Part shown: positions 31,872 to 60,369 of the stretch, piece after piece
How the letters are laid out: every line of letters starts with the position of its first letter
Numbering within the stretch: position 1 is the first letter of the stretch
Origin: Pseudodesulfovibrio sp.
GTDB lineage: Bacteria; Desulfobacterota; Desulfovibrionia; Desulfovibrionales; Desulfovibrionaceae
Length of the DNA stretch: 64,000 nt
Direction: 5' to 3'
Assembly (NCBI RefSeq): GCF_028692895.1
Contig: NZ_JAQUWN010000011.1
Span: 1 to 64,000, forward strand
Program-made: the position numbers and the translations under genes
The notes under the pieces: generated by a model
The model's database searches: none
Seen by the model: the letters and a program-made list of their open reading frames with translations, nothing else
What the model was told of the DNA's origin: nothing

Positions 31872-31890
31872 ATCCGGCCTGGCGGGCATA

Positions 31891-31901
31891 CAAATTTTTT
31901 G
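31891..31901 (+). promoter_or_regulatory. Candidate activator site A1 (distal)
   Basis: CAAATTTTTTG followed by CCCC, centred about 148 bp before the sigma-54 promoter of RNA A. An equivalent motif occurs at the same distance before RNA B. Confidence 0.55.
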
Positions 31902-31930
31902 CCCCATGCCGGGCGGACCCGGGGAAAGTC

Positions 31931-31940
31931 CAAGTTTTTG
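31931..31940 (+). promoter_or_regulatory. Candidate activator site A2 (proximal)
   Basis: CAAGTTTTTG followed by TACC, centred about 108 bp before the promoter of RNA A and 40 bp from A1. It shares the pattern AARTTYTTGnMCC with A1, B1 and B2. Confidence 0.55.
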
Positions 31941-32043
31941 TACCTCGAACCCTGCGCAAAGCAGCCATGCCTGGAAGAATATTGATAATATAACACGCCG
32001 CCATTACAGGAGATAAAAATATTTTGAGCAATGATTCTGACTT

Positions 32044-32059
32044 TGGCACGGAGGATGCT
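32044..32059 (+). promoter_or_regulatory. Sigma-54 (-24/-12) promoter of small RNA A
   Basis: TGGCACG-N4-ATGCT: the invariant GG and GC are separated by exactly 10 nt as required for RpoN. Transcription is expected to start near 32070. Confidence 0.75.
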
Positions 32060-32069
32060 AATCCTAAAA

Positions 32070-32129
32070 CATCTTCCTTCTTTTGCACCGAGAAAACAAA
32101 TGGCCTCCTCCGGGAGGCCTTTCTCGTTT
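32070..32129 (+). ncRNA. Candidate sigma-54-dependent small RNA A
   Basis: A predicted transcript of about 60 nt from the -24/-12 promoter to a hairpin terminator. The 5' part is unstructured and pyrimidine-rich (AUCUUCCUUCUUUUGCACC). The 3' part is a two-level hairpin: outer arms CGAGAAA / UUUCUCG and inner arms GGCCUCC / GGAGGCC with a UCCG loop. 27 of the first 29 bases from the conserved AACA are identical to RNA B at 60 kb, as are the terminator arms. The CUUCCUU segment is complementary to Shine-Dalgarno-like AAGGAAG. An ATG inside (32099) is not conserved in B, so this is an RNA rather than a peptide gene. It could instead be a leader of the M23 gene 100 nt downstream. Confidence 0.65.
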
Positions 32130-32228: not shown

Positions 32229-33233
32229 ATGCCGCGCCCGCGCCGCCACATATTCGCCGCCATATTGCCGTCCGTCCTCTGCCTCGTCCTCCTTTCCGCC
32301 TCGGCCGGCCAGGCCCTGGAGCTCTCCCAGCCCATCCGCTGCGACTACGGCGTCGGCTGTTTCGTCCAGAACTACGTGGACGTGGACCCGTCCCCGGACG
32401 CCGCCGACTTCACCTGCGGGGCCCTGACCTACGACGGCCACAAAGGCACAGACTTCCGCATCCCCTGGGCCGACTACCGGAAAGGGGTCGAGGTGCTGGC
32501 CGCCGCGCCCGGCGCCGTGCTGCGCGTGCGCGACTCCGTCGAGGACCGCGACGCGCGCGGCCATGAGGAGGAGGTCCGGCCCTACGGCCTGGGCAACGCC
32601 GTCATCATCGAGCACGAGGACGGCTACCAGACCGTCTATGCGCACATGAAGCAGGGTTCGGTCCGGGTCAAGGAGGGCGACAGGGTCGAACGCGGCCAGG
32701 TGCTCGGCCTGGTGGGGTTGTCCGGCCTGACCGTCTTTCCGCACCTCCATTTCGGGGTCACCCGTGACGGCCACGCCGTCTGCCCCTTCCTGGGCCGCCA
32801 GGCCGACCTGCCCGCTCTGTGCGGCACCCCGCCCGACCCGCTCTGGGGCCCCAAGGTCCGCATCGGCTACATCCCCACCGGCCTGATCCGAGCCACCTTT
32901 CTCGACGCCCGGCCCGAATTCCCGGCCGTGCTCCGCGAACCGGAAAAAACGACCCTGCGCGCCGATTCGTCCGCCATCGTTTTCGCCGTCGCCGTCTTTG
33001 GCACCCGCGCGGGCGACCGGGTCGAAATGCGCATCCTCGACCCCCTCGGCCGCGTTGTCTCCCGGGCCGACTCGCCCATCGAAAAGACCCAGGCCCAACG
33101 CCTTATCTACATCGGCAAGCGCCTGGAAGACCCGAAAAAGCCCTGGCTGGCCGGAACCTATCAGGGCGAATACCGCCTCCTGCGCGGCGGCAAGACCGTG
33201 GTCCGCGCCAGCAGCAAGGTCGAGGTGCGCTAA
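32229..33233 (+). CDS. M23 (LytM) family peptidase, secreted
   Basis: 334 residues with a signal peptide (about 1-28, ending SAGQALE). The LytM zinc endopeptidase domain (about 55-195) has ligand motifs HKGTDFR and HLHFG, with YGLGNAVIIEHEDGYQTVYAHM between. A C-terminal beta domain (about 215-334) may bind cell wall or partner. It would cleave peptidoglycan cross-bridges or act as an amidase activator in the periplasm. ACAAGGAG before ATG 32229 supports the start. The small RNA A gene lies upstream on the same strand. Confidence 0.85.
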   Translation: MPRPRRHIFAAILPSVLCLVLLSASAGQALELSQPIRCDYGVGCFVQNYVDVDPSPDAADFTCGALTYDGHKGTDFRIPWADYRKGVEVLAAAPGAVLRVRDSVEDRDARGHEEEVRPYGLGNAVIIEHEDGYQTVYAHMKQGSVRVKEGDRVERGQVLGLVGLSGLTVFPHLHFGVTRDGHAVCPFLGRQADLPALCGTPPDPLWGPKVRIGYIPTGLIRATFLDARPEFPAVLREPEKTTLRADSSAIVFAVAVFGTRAGDRVEMRILDPLGRVVSRADSPIEKTQAQRLIYIGKRLEDPKKPWLAGTYQGEYRLLRGGKTVVRASSKVEVR

Positions 33234-55085: not shown

Positions 55086-55203
55086 GCGGCTTCCCTCCCT
55101 CGGCGCACCCTAGCAGCGCGGCCCCGGCCTGACCATGCGTTTTTTGCCCGGTTCGTCCCCGTCGCCCATTGGCATATTCGGCCGCGCCGGGTACAGTGGT
55201 CCC

Positions 55204-56526
55204 ATGCCGTTTCCCAGGAACCTGCCCCTCGAAGACGTCTTCGCCTCCATCGCGGACGGGCTTTTCACCGTGGATGCCGACTGGAACATCACGTACTTCA
55301 ACGAGTCGGCCCAGCGCATCACCGGCGTGAGCTACGCCGAGGCCGTGGGCCGCAAGTGCTGGGACGTGTTCCGCTCCAGCCTGTGCGACGGCAACTGCGC
55401 CGTGGACCATTGCCTGCGCCGGGGCGTGAGCATCACCAACAAGTCCATCTTCATCATCAAGAACGACGGCAGCCGGCTGCCCGTGTCCATCTCCGCCTCG
55501 GCGCTGACCAACAGCGACGGCGAGGTGGTGGGCGGGGTCGAGACCTTTCGCGACCTGACCGAAATCCAGGCCATGCGCCGCAAGGTCAAGGACCTCTACC
55601 GGTTCGAGGACATCGTGGGCCACAGCCCGTCGCTCGACCGGATATTCCGCATCCTGCCCCAGGTCAGCTCCAGCCAGGCCACGACCCTGCTGCTCGGCGA
55701 GTCCGGCACGGGCAAGGAGCTCTTCGCCCGGGCCATCCACTCCCTGAGCCCGCGCCGGGACAAGCCCTTCGTGCCCGTCAACTGCGGGGCGCTGCCCGAA
55801 AACCTGTTGGAGAGCGAGCTCTTCGGCTACAAGGCCGGGGCCTTCACCGACGCCCGGCACGACAAGCCGGGGCGGCTGGAGATGGCCGAGGGCGGCACGG
55901 TCTTCCTGGACGAGATCGGCGACCTGCCCGGCCCGCTCCAGGTCAAGCTGCTCCGGTTTCTCCAGGAGAAGACCTTCGAGCCCCTGGGCGGGGTCGCGCC
56001 GGTGCGGGCGGACGTGCGCGTGGTGGCCGCCACCAATCGCGACCTGGAAAAGCGCGTGGCCGACGGCCGGTTCCGCCAGGATCTCTTCTACCGGCTCAAC
56101 GTGGTCACCTTCCACCTGCCGCCCCTGCGCGAGCGGCGCGAGGACATTCCCCTGCTGGTGGAGCACTTCGTGGAGCAGTTCAACGCCATCCAGGGCAAGC
56201 AGGTCCAGGGCGTGAGCGAGGACGTGCTCCTGCTGCTCCTGCGCCACGACTTTCCCGGCAACGTCCGCGAGCTGGAGAACATCCTTGAATACGCCTTCAT
56301 CCTCTGCTCCTCCGGGTTCATCCAGCAGGAACACCTGCCCGACTCCCTCCAGGCCGGGGCTGAACCCGCCGCCTCGGCCGGCGGCCTGCACGGCACTCTG
56401 GAGGAAATCAAGCGCCGCGCCGCACGCCACGCCGTGGAGCGCAACCAGGGCCGCCGCATGGCCGCCTGCCGCGAGCTGGGCATAACCAAGGACACCCTGC
56501 GCCGCCTTCTGGATTCCAAAGAGTAG
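55204..56526 (+). CDS. Sigma-54-dependent activator with PAS sensor domain
   Basis: 440 residues. The PAS domain (about 10-120) has a cysteine cluster (SSLCDGNCAVDHCLRRG) that may bind metal or sense redox. The AAA+ domain (about 139-365) has Walker A GESGTGKE and Walker B VFLDEIGD. The sigma-54-contact loop reads GAFTDA instead of GAFTGA. A Fis-type helix-turn-helix is C-terminal (ACRELGITKDTLRRLL). It activates RpoN promoters from enhancer sites. A perfect -24/-12 promoter lies 100 bp downstream, in front of the NifX/ORP-like gene. ATG 55204 is chosen by domain extent; the Shine-Dalgarno is weak. Confidence 0.88.
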   Translation: MPFPRNLPLEDVFASIADGLFTVDADWNITYFNESAQRITGVSYAEAVGRKCWDVFRSSLCDGNCAVDHCLRRGVSITNKSIFIIKNDGSRLPVSISASALTNSDGEVVGGVETFRDLTEIQAMRRKVKDLYRFEDIVGHSPSLDRIFRILPQVSSSQATTLLLGESGTGKELFARAIHSLSPRRDKPFVPVNCGALPENLLESELFGYKAGAFTDARHDKPGRLEMAEGGTVFLDEIGDLPGPLQVKLLRFLQEKTFEPLGGVAPVRADVRVVAATNRDLEKRVADGRFRQDLFYRLNVVTFHLPPLRERREDIPLLVEHFVEQFNAIQGKQVQGVSEDVLLLLLRHDFPGNVRELENILEYAFILCSSGFIQQEHLPDSLQAGAEPAASAGGLHGTLEEIKRRAARHAVERNQGRRMAACRELGITKDTLRRLLDSKE

Positions 56527-56537
56527 GGCGTATTTTT

Positions 56538-56569
56538 CGCCCGCCCCCCGATTGCATGGGCGTTTTTTT
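56538..56569 (+). terminator. Terminator after the sigma-54 activator gene
   Basis: A short stem (CGCCC / GGGCG, 15-nt loop) followed by seven T. Confidence 0.6.
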
Positions 56570-56626
56570 AGCCGCAGTCTGGGTAAGGGGCTAAGGCAAC
56601 ATCCTTGATTTACAGGCTTTTTAGCG

Positions 56627-56642
56627 TGGCACGATCCATGCT
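56627..56642 (+). promoter_or_regulatory. Sigma-54 (-24/-12) promoter before the NifX/ORP-like gene
   Basis: TGGCACGATCCATGCT: GG and GC with a 10-nt gap, identical in core to the two small-RNA promoters (TGGCACG-N4-TGCT). Expected start near 56653. The adjacent activator gene upstream is the obvious candidate regulator. Confidence 0.8.
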
Positions 56643-56689
56643 CTCCTTTGTTCAGTCCGGCATGGGTCCCCGGGGAAGCACGGGTGCAC

Positions 56690-57055
56690 ATGACTCCTGA
56701 ATCCCCCACGCGCATCTGCCTCGCGTGCTACAAGGACCGGCTGGCCTCCGTCTGCGAAAATGCGGACCGGTACAAGCTGTTTGACATACGTGACAACGAT
56801 ATTTACCCCGCAGGCCTCCTATCCCTTCCCTCAAAGGACCCTATGGACAGGACATCCGCCATACTGGCCTGCGGGGTATCTTATTTGTTGTGCGGGGCCA
56901 TCGGGGCCGACACCCGCGCCCGGCTGGAACGCGCCGGGGTGGGCGTGCGTCCCTGGCTGACGGGCTCCGTGGCCCAGGCCGTTTCCGCCTTCCGCCGGGG
57001 CAACCTCGCCGATCTGGCCATGCCGGGTTGCAGACCGCGCCGGGAGGATATTTGA
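56690..57055 (+). CDS. NifX/NifB-like molybdenum-iron cluster-binding protein (ORP-like)
   Basis: A 121-residue protein with the dinitrogenase Fe-Mo cofactor-binding fold: short N-terminal CLACY motif, then ILACGVSYLLCGAIGADTRARLERAGVGVRPWLTG, which matches the NifX/NafY core (Gly-Ala-Ile near residue 83). In D. vulgaris the orange protein (ORP) and a Mrp ATPase are encoded in a cluster with a sigma-54 regulator. The same set (activator, RpoN promoter, this protein, mrp) is present here, so an ORP-type role is likely but not proven. ATG 56690 is used; GTG 56684 has a better-spaced GGGGAAG site. Confidence 0.7.
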   Translation: MTPESPTRICLACYKDRLASVCENADRYKLFDIRDNDIYPAGLLSLPSKDPMDRTSAILACGVSYLLCGAIGADTRARLERAGVGVRPWLTGSVAQAVSAFRRGNLADLAMPGCRPRREDI

Positions 57056-57160
57056 CTTTTCCCGCGCGATGACTATTCCAGTCACGTTACCGGCCGCGCG
57101 GCCGGTCCAGCGAACCACCAAGCCGAGGGCGGGGCGACCCGCCGTCTCCAGGAGAACACA

Positions 57161-58039
57161 ATGAGCGATTGCAGCGGATGCTCCTCTGCCGGGCCCGACG
57201 GCGGCTGCGCCAGCGCCACGGGATGCGACCAGAACCCTGACGCGAAACTGAAAAAGACCCTGGGCCGGATCAAGCACAAGATCGTGGTCATGTCCGGCAA
57301 GGGCGGCGTGGGCAAGTCCACCGTGGCCGCCAACCTCGCCGTGGCTCTCTCCCTGGCGGGCAAGAAGGTCGGCCTGCTGGACGTGGACGTCCACGGCCCG
57401 AGCATCCCCCGCCTGCTCGCCCTCAAGGGCCAGCAGCCGCACATGGGCGTGGACGTCATGGAGCCCGTCTCCTGGTCCAAGAACCTTTCCGTCATGTCCC
57501 TTGGCTTCCTGCTCCAGGACGACCGCCAGGCCGTGATCTGGCGCGGGCCGGTCAAGATCGGGCTGATAAAGCAGTTCGTGGAGGACGTCATGTGGGGCGA
57601 CCTCGACTACCTGATCGTCGACTGCCCCCCCGGAACCGGCGACGAGCCGCTCTCCACCCTCCAGACCCTCGGCCCCACGGCCATGGCCGTCATCGTCACC
57701 ACCCCCCAGGGCGTGGCCATCGACGACGTCCGCCGTTCCGTCTCCTTCGTGGGCGAAGTGGGCAACCGCGTGCTCGGCATCATCGAGAACATGTCCGGCT
57801 TCGCCTGCCCCAACTGCGGCGCGGTGCACAACATCTTCAACTCCGGCGGCGGCGAGGACCTGGCCAAGGAATCGGGCGTCCGTTTCCTGGGCCGCATCCC
57901 CCTGGACCCGGAAGTGGCGCGCTCCGGCGACGAGGGCTACCCCTTCATGAAGGTCCACCGCGACACGGCCACCGGCAAGGCCCTGGGCGAAATCATCGCC
58001 CCCATCCTCGCCTTGCCCGATCCGCCCGCGGCGGCCTAA
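57161..58039 (+). CDS. mrp: Mrp/NBP35-family ATP-binding iron-sulfur carrier
   Basis: A 292-residue deviant-Walker ATPase. P-loop GKGGVGKST near 46-54, the later VDVHGPSIPRLL, and DYLIVDCPPGTGDE are typical of Mrp/NBP35. A Cys-rich N-terminus (CSGC...C...C, residues 4-22) and CPNCGAVHNIF near 220 provide cluster-binding cysteines. It loads or transfers Fe-S (or Mo-Fe) clusters. AGGAGAACACA precedes the ATG. The ORP-like gene lies about 105 bp upstream in the same direction. In Desulfovibrio ORP complexes, MrpORP often carries an extra C-terminal ORP domain, absent here. Confidence 0.9.
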   Translation: MSDCSGCSSAGPDGGCASATGCDQNPDAKLKKTLGRIKHKIVVMSGKGGVGKSTVAANLAVALSLAGKKVGLLDVDVHGPSIPRLLALKGQQPHMGVDVMEPVSWSKNLSVMSLGFLLQDDRQAVIWRGPVKIGLIKQFVEDVMWGDLDYLIVDCPPGTGDEPLSTLQTLGPTAMAVIVTTPQGVAIDDVRRSVSFVGEVGNRVLGIIENMSGFACPNCGAVHNIFNSGGGEDLAKESGVRFLGRIPLDPEVARSGDEGYPFMKVHRDTATGKALGEIIAPILALPDPPAAA

Positions 58040-58084
58040 GGCCTGCCCGCAAAGCGGCTTTCCCGAAATTCGACCCGTTTCCTC

Positions 58085-58122
58085 TTCGCCCTGTCCGGCC
58101 ATGCCGGGCAGGGCGAATTTTT
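58085..58122 (+). terminator. Terminator after mrp
   Basis: A 15-bp stem (58085-58099 with 58103-58117, one GU) with a 3-nt loop, followed by five T. Confidence 0.9.
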
Positions 58123-58175
58123 CGCCCAACCCTCTCTCCCTCCATTTGCGCACATCGCTTTTCCCCGGCGCGGAA

Positions 58176-59237
58176 ATGTCGTATGTCATTTCCATGCCGC
58201 GCTACCTCAAACATCTGCTGACCGTGGTCACCCTGATCGTCCTGGCCGCCTTTCTGGCCTTCCTGCATGACTGCGTCGCCGGGCTGGCCGGTTTCGCGGG
58301 TCGCCTGAACCCGGCCTTCGAGCCGTGGGTCTTCTGGACCTTGGCCGGGCTGGTGGGCGGGCTGATCCTGTGGGGCGTGGGCCAGGTGCTCCTGCGGCCC
58401 CGGCCGCTCCTGCTCCACGCCGCGCCCACCGAGGCGGAAATGGCCGAGTTCCGCCGCGCCCTGGCCAAACGGCTGCGGGCCAACCCCGTGGTCCGCGAGG
58501 CCGGGATCGACGTGCGCGACGCGGCGGACCTGGAGCCCGCCCTGGCCCTGCTGGGCGAGCGGGCCGACGAGGAGATACGGGCCACGGGCAAGCGGGTCTT
58601 CATCGGCACGGCCCTGTCCCAGAACGGGCGGCTGGACGCCATGGTCGTCCTCTTCCTGGTCATGCGTCTGGTCTGGCGGCTGGCCCGGCTCTTCAACCAG
58701 CGGCCCCACCCGCGCGAGCTGATGAACCTCTACGCCAACATCGCGGCCACCACCTTCCTGGCGGGCTCGGTGGAGGACATCGGCATCGAGGAATACGTGC
58801 GCGAGCTCATGGCCCCGCTGGTGGGCGGCTCGGCCGTGGGGGCCCTGCCCGGCGCCCAGGCCATCGCCGGGGTCATCACCTCGTCGGTGCTGACCGGCTC
58901 CACCAACTGTCTGCTGACCCTGCGCTGCGGCATCATCGCCCGCAACTACCTCTCCCTCTCCCTGGACGGCCGGGGGGCCATGCGCCGCAACGCGACCATC
59001 GAAGCGGCCCGCATGTTCATGGGCCTGAGCACCGGCACCGTGGCCTACGTGACCAAGGTCCTGGTCAAGGGCTCCACCGGCGCGCTCAGGAGCGGCACGT
59101 CCAAGGTCGTCCACGGCGTGGGCGACGCCATCACCGGCACGGCCGGGAAGGTGGGCGGCACGGCGGGCAGCGTGATCCGCTCCGGCCGGGACACGGTCCG
59201 GCGCGTCACCGACGCGTTCAAGCGGCCGCCCAAGTAG
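58176..59237 (+). CDS. DUF697-family inner-membrane protein
   Basis: About 353 residues. It has two hydrophobic helices near the N-terminus (about 10-35 and 50-72), a cytoplasmic stretch (80-160), and a second pair of hydrophobic segments within 170-270. These include VGALPGAQAIAGVITSSVLTGSTNCLLTLR, the DUF697-like glycine-rich part. It ends in a Gly/Thr/Ser-rich, positively charged tail with amphipathic repeats (TSKVVHGVGDAITGTAGKVGG). The start is uncertain (58176 or 58194). No pathway can be inferred from the neighbours. Confidence 0.7.
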   Translation: MSYVISMPRYLKHLLTVVTLIVLAAFLAFLHDCVAGLAGFAGRLNPAFEPWVFWTLAGLVGGLILWGVGQVLLRPRPLLLHAAPTEAEMAEFRRALAKRLRANPVVREAGIDVRDAADLEPALALLGERADEEIRATGKRVFIGTALSQNGRLDAMVVLFLVMRLVWRLARLFNQRPHPRELMNLYANIAATTFLAGSVEDIGIEEYVRELMAPLVGGSAVGALPGAQAIAGVITSSVLTGSTNCLLTLRCGIIARNYLSLSLDGRGAMRRNATIEAARMFMGLSTGTVAYVTKVLVKGSTGALRSGTSKVVHGVGDAITGTAGKVGGTAGSVIRSGRDTVRRVTDAFKRPPK

Positions 59238-59289
59238 ATCCTGGCAAAAAAGGCTGGACAACTCGTCGAATCCGGGCTGTATTGCGATC

Positions 59290-60093
59290 ATGAATGGCTA
59301 CCATTGGGGAACCGCTGGAAACGACAGGGCATCGGCGTTGCGATTCCTTCTCCTCGTCCTGGGCTTTCTCCTGCTGTTTCCCGCGCCGGGCTCCTGCGCC
59401 TCGCTCCGCGTGGTCACGGAGGAATGGCCGCCCTACAACTACGCCGAAAACGGGGCCGCCGCCGGGCTGGTCACCGCAGTGGTCCGCGCCGCGCTGGACC
59501 GGGCCGGGCTCGACTACACCATCAAGGTCCTGCCCTGGGCCAGAGCCTATTCCCTGGCCCTGCACGACCCGAACGTCCTGCTCTACAGCACGCTCAAGCT
59601 TCCGGAGCGGGAGCCGCACTTCCACTGGGTGCGCCTGGACGGGCTCGGGGTCGAGATGCACCTCTTCCGCCCCCGGCACCGGAGAGACATCCGCATAGGG
59701 ACCCTTGACGACGCCAAGGCCTACCGCGTGGGCCTCACCCGCGACTCCGCCCCGCACCACTTCCTGCTCCGGCAAGGCTTCCAGGAGGGGGTCAATCTCT
59801 TCCCGGTCAGCGACGAGCTGCTCAACGTCCGCAAATCCGAGCCCGGCAACAACCGCATCGACCTGACCACCGGCGACCCCCTCTCCCAGGGCTACCGGCT
59901 GCGCCAGGCGGGCCTGCCCGCCGACTACTGGGTCCGGGTCCTCCCGCTCTTCAGCACGGACATCTACATGGCCTTCAGCCTCGCCACCCCGCCCGAGACG
60001 GTCGAGCGGGTCCGCGCGGCGCTCCGCCAGCTCCGCGACGAGGGGTTCATCGACGCGACCCGCGACGGCTACCTCCGGCGGCTCGCGCCGTAG
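59290..60093 (+). CDS. Periplasmic solute-binding (SBP family 3) protein
   Basis: 267 residues with a signal segment (about 14-36, ending CAS). LRVVTEEWPPYNYAENGAAAGLVTAVVRAAL is the usual start of family-3 binding domains. YRVGLTRDSAPHHFLL and a C-terminal helix pair complete the fold. It is a stand-alone gene without permease or ATPase, like the one at 16.3 kb. The ligand is unknown. A terminator at 60177-60216 (plus strand) probably ends it. Confidence 0.78.
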   Translation: MNGYHWGTAGNDRASALRFLLLVLGFLLLFPAPGSCASLRVVTEEWPPYNYAENGAAAGLVTAVVRAALDRAGLDYTIKVLPWARAYSLALHDPNVLLYSTLKLPEREPHFHWVRLDGLGVEMHLFRPRHRRDIRIGTLDDAKAYRVGLTRDSAPHHFLLRQGFQEGVNLFPVSDELLNVRKSEPGNNRIDLTTGDPLSQGYRLRQAGLPADYWVRVLPLFSTDIYMAFSLATPPETVERVRAALRQLRDEGFIDATRDGYLRRLAP

Positions 60094-60102
60094 GACCCCC
60101 CG

Positions 60103-60162
60103 AAAACGAGAAAGGCCTCCTTGCGGAGGCCTGGATTTTCTCGGTGCAAAAAAAGGAAGGTG
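60103..60162 (-). ncRNA. Candidate sigma-54-dependent small RNA B
   Basis: A predicted transcript of about 60 nt on the minus strand, from a -24/-12 promoter (60188-60173) to a hairpin terminator. It carries the pyrimidine-rich 5' part (ACCUUCCUUUUUUUGCACC) and outer arms CGAGAAA / UUUCUCG. The inner arms are GGCCUCC / GGAGGCC with a GCAA loop in place of UCCG. The first 29 bases from AACA differ from RNA A at two positions only, and the arms are identical. No gene lies downstream on this strand (the next gene is convergent), so B must be a stand-alone RNA. It has no ATG in the hairpin region. Its upstream DNA contains two activator-like motifs at the same distances as in A. Confidence 0.68.
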
Positions 60163-60172
60163 TTCTCCCTAT

Positions 60173-60188
60173 AGCACGCGGCGTGCCA
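60173..60188 (-). promoter_or_regulatory. Sigma-54 (-24/-12) promoter of small RNA B
   Basis: On the minus strand TGGCACG-N4-GTGCT, with GG and GC separated by 10 nt. The promoter overlaps an 11-bp inverted repeat (60177-60187 with 60195-60205) that also works as the plus-strand terminator of the binding-protein gene. Confidence 0.7.
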
Positions 60189-60216
60189 AAGCCCGGCACG
60201 CCGCGAATGTTTTTTA
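60177..60216 (+). terminator. Terminator of the SBP gene, overlapping RNA B promoter
   Basis: A perfect 11-bp stem (CGCGGCGTGCC / GGCACGCCGCG), 7-nt loop, then AATGTTTTTT. Confidence 0.75.
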
Positions 60217-60290
60217 TTTATCCTTGTATTCCTGGATGTTGGCGCGCAACAAAAAACGACCGGTCCACTGCGGTGCGGGCCGGTCGGGTT

Positions 60291-60300
60291 CAAGAATTTC
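60291..60300 (-). promoter_or_regulatory. Candidate activator site B2 (proximal)
   Basis: Minus strand GAAATTCTTG followed by AACC, centred about 108 bp before RNA B's promoter; counterpart of A2. Confidence 0.5.
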
Positions 60301-60330
60301 TACTTTGCGGGAATGCGGCAGCCAGGGGGA

Positions 60331-60340
60331 CAAAAATTTC
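60331..60340 (-). promoter_or_regulatory. Candidate activator site B1 (distal)
   Basis: Minus strand GAAATTTTTG followed by TCCC, centred about 148 bp before RNA B's promoter and 40 bp from B2; counterpart of A1. Confidence 0.52.
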
Positions 60341-60369
60341 AACCCGTCCGCCCGCGGTCTCGTGCGGGG

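Follow-up and report, generated by a model that had tools for sequence, protein, structure and literature searches.

The window (the whole 64,000-nucleotide stretch of Pseudodesulfovibrio sp. DNA analysed here) contains two short sibling units, sRNA A and sRNA B, each preceded by a -24/-12 promoter of the sigma-54 type and each ending in a terminator hairpin (Table 1). A preliminary description had placed two such units at ~32 kb and ~60.1 kb, and both are confirmed, together with the particulars claimed for them: i) the distance from promoter to AACA is equal, the interval from the -12 GC being the same in A and B; ii) the two copies differ at two positions when ACATCTTCCTTCTTTTGCACCGAGAAA is set against ACACCTTCCTTTTTTTGCACCGAGAAA; and iii) the terminator arms are identical, both units ending in a CGAGAAA../GGCCTCC..GGAGGCC/TTTCTCG hairpin. 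The element TTGGCACN6TGCT, with correctly spaced -24 GG and -12 GC, is found in both units and in the genus copies described below. Transcription of the units, like their start and end points, is inferred, as we have no RNA data.

Table 1. Positions in the window of the two sRNA units and their associated elements
Feature	Coordinates	Strand	Remarks
sRNA A (class I)	32070..32128	+	~59 nt; start placed 12 nt after -12 GC; start and end inferred
sRNA A -24/-12 promoter (sigma-54), TTGGCACGGAGGATGCT	32043..32059	+	from sequence; same place in genus copies
sRNA A pairing core, unpaired, CUUCCUUCUUUUGC	32073..32086	+	complement of porin Shine-Dalgarno, one mismatch
sRNA A terminator hairpin, CGAGAAA..GGCCUCC/GGAGGCC..UUUCUCG	32089..32126	+	fold; compensatory changes
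sRNA A proximal palindrome, GGTACAAAAACTTGGACT	31927..31944	-	117 bp before TGGCAC
sRNA A distal palindrome, GGGCAAAAAATTTGTATG	31887..31904	-	157 bp before TGGCAC
sRNA B (class I)	60104..60162	-	~59 nt; start estimated
sRNA B -24/-12 promoter (sigma-54), TTGGCACGCCGCGTGCT	60173..60189	-	from sequence
sRNA B pairing core, CUUCCUUUUUUUGC	60146..60159	-	perfect 14-bp complement of porin 5'UTR GCAAAAAAAGGAAG
sRNA B terminator hairpin	60107..60143	-	fold
sRNA B proximal palindrome, AGTAGAAATTCTTGAACC	60287..60304	-	116 bp before TGGCAC
sRNA B distal palindrome, GGGACAAAAATTTCAACC	60327..60344	+	156 bp before TGGCAC

Both RNAs are predicted to fold into a ~20-nt unpaired 5' arm followed by the terminator hairpin, in which the A-tract and U-tract are also paired (fold z-scores of -4.4 for sRNA A and -4.6 for sRNA B); the 5' arm and the tail are U-rich. 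When up to 3 mismatches are allowed, TTTTGCACCGAGAAAA matches only units A and B in the window (0.15 matches expected), and the pattern CTTCCTT-N(0-10)-TTTGCACCGAG, which joins the core to GCACCGAG, has exactly two matches in the 3.69-Mb genome, where the reversed-pattern control is not found at all. A third, longer sibling lies outside the window (G000:C8:792-891, with the RNA at C8:822-891 behind TGGCACGGAGGTTGCT). No Rfam family, Qrr included, reaches its gathering score in a scan of the window, and the MicA model gives the sRNA only 19.7 bits against a cut-off of 41 (E = 1). A role as a protein sponge of the CsrA type was rejected because the single-stranded part contains no GGA.

Sequence comparison shows that the units and their promoters belong to a widespread gene family. 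Among 36 genomes of the same genus, 21 contain the exact core, in each case preceded by a TGGCA[CT]-N6-TGC promoter at a near-constant distance. More distant copies were sought with two covariance models, R1 for the RNA alone and R2 including the promoter; sRNA A scores 78.3 bits alone and 85.9 bits with the promoter, and sRNA B 82.7 and 78.7 bits. Promoter and sRNA together (R2) are matched in all 36 genus genomes; across the order, the matches extend to 233 of 348 genomes, representing 45 of 59 genera, with the reservation that the weaker, uninspected matches in the order-wide counts may include false ones. All 26 copies of one inspected set have promoter, core, and terminator, as do nearly all copies of a second. 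Carriers include Nitratidesulfovibrio liaohensis, N. oxamicus, Desulfovibrio sp. A2, and Salidesulfovibrio brasiliensis. The R1 search also exposed a second, longer class (class II, ~71 nt), of which the C8 copy is an example, and tandem copies in other genera, the members of an array lying a few hundred bp apart. Some R1 matches (L077, L079, L080, L081, and a minus-strand match in L071) proved to be plain terminators without a promoter, and, in a scan of named genomes, the inspected matches outside the Desulfovibrionales (L295, L298, and L302) were taken as chance, having no palindrome of the kind described below. Neighboring genes vary from copy to copy: often, an aminotransferase gene and ilvD lie on either side of class I, and a Sua5/YrdC gene and a NUDIX gene on either side of class II. 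Near one sRNA copy, in a g12 genome, is a match to the ZMP/ZTP riboswitch (62 bits; L284:130-214); and in L293 (5041-5472), sRNA copies of the Nitratidesulfovibrio type lie near a small gene whose product resembles a Nitro_FeMo-Co protein, as does sRNA B.

In the inner stem of the class I terminator, three base pairs have changed on both sides, and 98.8% of cells are paired. The preliminary description had read A and B as sigma-54-driven sibling sRNAs and had proposed a search of relatives for core and promoter; that search is now done, and the reading is supported (although transcription itself has not been shown) because all 36 genus genomes retain promoter, sRNA, and terminator as a unit, with compensatory changes in the terminator stem.

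An element overlooked in the preliminary description is a phased pair of palindromes upstream of the unit. Each is an 18-bp imperfect palindrome (RGTNNAAAAWNTTGNACY), and sequence comparison shows that most genus copies have two of them, 40 or 52 bp apart (approximately four and five helical turns) and at a fixed distance from the promoter. The two best sites lie 117/157, 116/156, or 115/155 bp before TGGCAC in most class I copies of the genus, and mostly 115/167 bp before it in class II. A matrix trained on the sRNA promoters only gives no score of 15 in 590 control upstream regions of 300 bp, the best being 12.7. The arrangement is not universal: the palindrome could not be found at one of the sRNA copies of g12, g4 has only the proximal site at the usual position, and some other copies have a single site or none. 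We infer, from sequence alone and without binding data, that the palindromes are enhancer sites of one sigma-54 activator (EBP) whose identity is not established. In other genera, additional palindromes occur some hundred bp from sRNA copies (L405:5256, L406:5964, L408:6464, L409:5364, L410:7215, and L412:5668); these might mark undetected siblings or other targets.

A search of the same genome for the palindrome returned the three sRNA loci and one further place, an adjacent pair of sites between uvrC and a divergent porin gene; the other one-mismatch matches inspected (including those on C30 and C77) lie inside coding sequence. The porin belongs to DESULF_POR1 (NCBIfam NF033939, outer membrane homotrimeric porin), scoring 508.9 bits against a cut-off of 250. 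DVU0799 of D. vulgaris, a highly abundant and probably essential homotrimeric major porin (PMC5686591), is in all likelihood a member of the same Desulfovibrio-type family as the proposed target, an inference drawn from the name and description of the model (NF033939) rather than from direct comparison. The palindrome common to sRNA and porin genes is shown by sequence comparison: the matrix trained on the sRNAs scores at least 18.7 upstream of all 35 porin copies of the genus, versus none of the 590 controls at 15, with palindromes in the typical case at -107, -124, and -287 relative to GCAAA, the closest of them lying just upstream of a promoter-like TTGCAA-N17-GRTAAA element. Among protein genes, only the porin was found to have the sRNA palindrome in all genus genomes examined. 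The distal porin palindrome falls inside the start of the uvrC coding sequence (G000:C23, L135:7261) and recurs across most of the genus. One genome (G019; L219:671-4269) has two tandem porin genes, with the complementary leader and palindromes at both.

No target had been named in the preliminary description; comparative evidence now indicates the major porin mRNA. The unpaired arm CUUCCUU..UUUUGC of the sRNA complements the porin Shine-Dalgarno region exactly or nearly so, and 14 nt of the porin leader GCAAAAAAAGGAAGAATTACTATG are perfectly complementary to sRNA B across the Shine-Dalgarno. The leader matches the sRNA arm in the 35 genus porin copies, and the pattern GCAAA-N-AAGGAA-N-ATGA is present in 36 of 36 genus genomes, mostly at the DESULF_POR1 porin. 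Calculated energies of the duplex between arm and porin are -25.4 kcal/mol for sRNA B, -22.9 for sRNA A, and -20.4 for the C8 copy; the terminator remains unbroken when sRNA B or the C8 copy is cofolded with the porin, and no strong inhibitory hairpin is predicted over the Shine-Dalgarno of the porin leader. Some pairing with any strong Shine-Dalgarno is to be expected, because the core overlaps the general Shine-Dalgarno complement; pairing equal to that of the porin is reached by ~0-3% of random start regions. At trpC and an rnr-like gene (G000:C112:18284 and C79:4396), complementary stretches of lesser length lie across the ribosome-binding sites. Both genes might be minor targets, but their candidacy as further targets was set aside, the matches being shorter and the genus-wide pattern search showing no recurrence.

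Sequence comparison further shows that sRNA arm and porin leader change together between lineages, although relatedness has not been corrected for. Specifically, i) five genus members (G003, G010, G011, G028, and G035), from lineages with GCAAAAGAAGG, have the porin leader GCAAAAGAAGGAAGG, and their sRNA arms contain CUUCUUUUGC, mostly as CCUUCUUUUGC; ii) in genus g4, porin GCAAAAGAAAGGA pairs with sRNA UCCUUUCUUUUGC, a match that was forecast from the sRNA before the porin sequence was obtained; iii) in g2, sRNA and porin match over 17 nt; and iv) over 39 genomes, perfect sRNA:porin matches of 9-17 nt average 12.7 nt versus 10.3 nt in permuted pairs, with mean duplex energies of -23.3 versus -20.2 kcal/mol, and none of 20,000 permutations (again uncorrected for relatedness) equals the own pairs in either energy or match length. 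In g37 and g29, the own pairs do not clearly stand out as the best.

We were unable to identify the activator. No conserved EBP gene was found beside the sRNA copies among the neighbors inspected; around the 25 clear EBP genes of the same genome, the only strong palindrome is that of sRNA B itself (the best other site scores 14.4); and no convincing candidate emerged from a palindrome search around 30 EBP loci in four further genomes. A PAS-type EBP located 4-6 kb from many class I copies and an orp-type EBP in the window are both unsupported, neither having a palindrome of its own. The window contains, at 55135-60093, a PAS-type sigma-54 activator gene followed by a sigma-54 promoter (TGGCACGATCCATGCT, at 56627) and the downstream genes Nitro_FeMo-Co, Mrp/ParA-type, DUF697, and SBP_bac_3, an orp-like cluster (compare the DVU2106 regulon) that ends beside sRNA B. 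The response regulator DVU1419 of D. vulgaris, which has an 18-bp motif and is linked to envelope stress, controls an ncRNA that lies upstream of DVU3282 and away from the DVU1419 gene (PMC4641369, PMC3333781). It may point toward the activator, but we regard this as a lead only.

We consider it likely that these observations reflect an order-wide family of sigma-54 sRNAs which are activated by an EBP, pair with the porin Shine-Dalgarno, and lower porin synthesis. On this model, the phased palindromes, located 115-117 and 155-167 bp before the -24 box, would be bound by the EBP, which through sigma-54 RNA polymerase would turn on the sibling sRNA genes, numbering two to several; the single-stranded 5' arm (..CAUCUUCCUU..UUUUGC..) would then pair over ~12-17 nt with the porin Shine-Dalgarno region (GCAAAAAAAGGAAG-N7-AUG), masking the ribosome-binding site and reducing porin synthesis as a trans-acting antisense RNA. 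The regulator probably also acts directly on porin transcription, because a palindrome adjoins the -35 box of the porin's sigma-70-type promoter. The sequence complementarity is shown, and we wish to stress that repression as the sign of regulation, the EBP and its signal, and any need for an RNA chaperone are all inferred in the absence of RNA data. A bolder reading, toward which the balance tips only slightly, is that the major porin of the Desulfovibrionales is under double control by a single sigma-54 activator, exerted directly at the porin promoter and indirectly through multicopy sibling sRNAs.

The alternative that survives best, and remains possible, is that the sRNAs are real and sigma-54-driven but target mRNAs broadly through CUUCCUU as a generic anti-Shine-Dalgarno core, the porin being one strong target among others. 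The core does complement the common Shine-Dalgarno, shorter complementary sites do precede trpC and rnr in the same genome, and the 0-3% of random start regions that pair as well as the porin also speak for it; against it, the conserved stretch runs past the Shine-Dalgarno (UUUUGC) and covaries with the porin UTR across lineages, and no other protein gene was found to share the sRNA palindrome throughout the genus genomes examined. That the sRNA instead activates the porin, for example by stabilizing the mRNA or by competing with another inhibitor, seems unlikely: the sign cannot be read from sequence, and the palindrome that the porin promoter has upstream of its -35 could serve for activation, but the pairing covers the Shine-Dalgarno itself, which would normally block ribosome binding, and the leader has no strong predicted hairpin hiding the Shine-Dalgarno. 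Still less probable is that each unit serves as the leader or attenuator of the gene downstream and yields no free RNA; sRNA A does lie 101 bp before an M23 peptidase gene at 32229 on the same strand, but what lies downstream varies and is often in convergent orientation (SBP_bac_3 in the case of sRNA B, ilvD in many genomes), a strong terminator ends the unit, and the tandem arrays have members a few hundred bp apart. A chance promoter beside a repeated terminator, with no functional gene, is all but ruled out: terminators with stems extended by A- and U-tracts are common, and R1 returned a few without promoters (L077, L079-L081), but enhancer pair, promoter, spacing, core, and terminator are jointly conserved in 36 of 36 genus genomes.

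The preliminary description knew of no sigma-54-driven sRNAs in the Desulfovibrionaceae, and in this it was mistaken. For D. vulgaris Hildenborough, the literature lists four ncRNAs under EBP control (PMC3333781, PMC4641369), located downstream of DVU0653, downstream of DVU0679 (Dv_sRNA2), upstream of DVU3282 (under DVU1419), and upstream of DVU2357 (under DVU2359). Like the present sRNAs, they are short, have sigma-54 promoters and EBP sites, and come from the same bacterial family; unlike them, they are given no target, sequence family, sibling copies, or porin link in the relevant texts (PMC3333781, PMC4641369), and three of the four lie beside their own EBP gene (the Dv_sRNA2/DVU0679 type), whereas the present sRNAs have no conserved adjacent EBP. 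The ncRNA upstream of DVU3282, which is not beside its EBP, could be an ortholog of the present family, since Nitratidesulfovibrio species carry the unit.

The enterobacterial MicF, MicC, MicA, and RybB are likewise short antisense RNAs whose single-stranded 5' part covers the start region of an abundant outer membrane protein, but their sequences are unrelated, and the present sRNA matches no Rfam family at gathering score. MicF, MicC, MicA, and RybB are driven by OmpR or sigma-E, not by sigma-54 and an EBP. The Qrr RNAs of Vibrio (sigma-54 and LuxO) resemble the present family in having several near-identical siblings, each with a sigma-54 promoter and upstream enhancer sites; compared with Qrr, the present sRNAs are shorter, consist of a single hairpin, and differ in sequence and apparent target. 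No regulation of DVU0799 is described in PMC5686591, and the gene is absent from the published sigma-54 regulome table. Thus, sigma-54-dependent ncRNAs in this bacterial family (of unstated function) and porin-repressing antisense RNAs in enterobacteria were already known; in the literature searched, no paper joins sigma-54 ncRNAs with porin repression or describes this RNA.

Sigma-54-controlled ncRNAs of sulfate reducers have been known since 2011 without a stated function, and the present family now gains a concrete, testable target. The covariance model and the 18-bp enhancer motif together offer a means of finding the missing activator and its signal. Conservation of the porin target extends over the genus and to several other genera, and the proposed circuit predicts control of membrane permeability at two levels; if our interpretation is correct, it would fill the role of OmpR/MicF or sigma-E/MicA-RybB using entirely different components.
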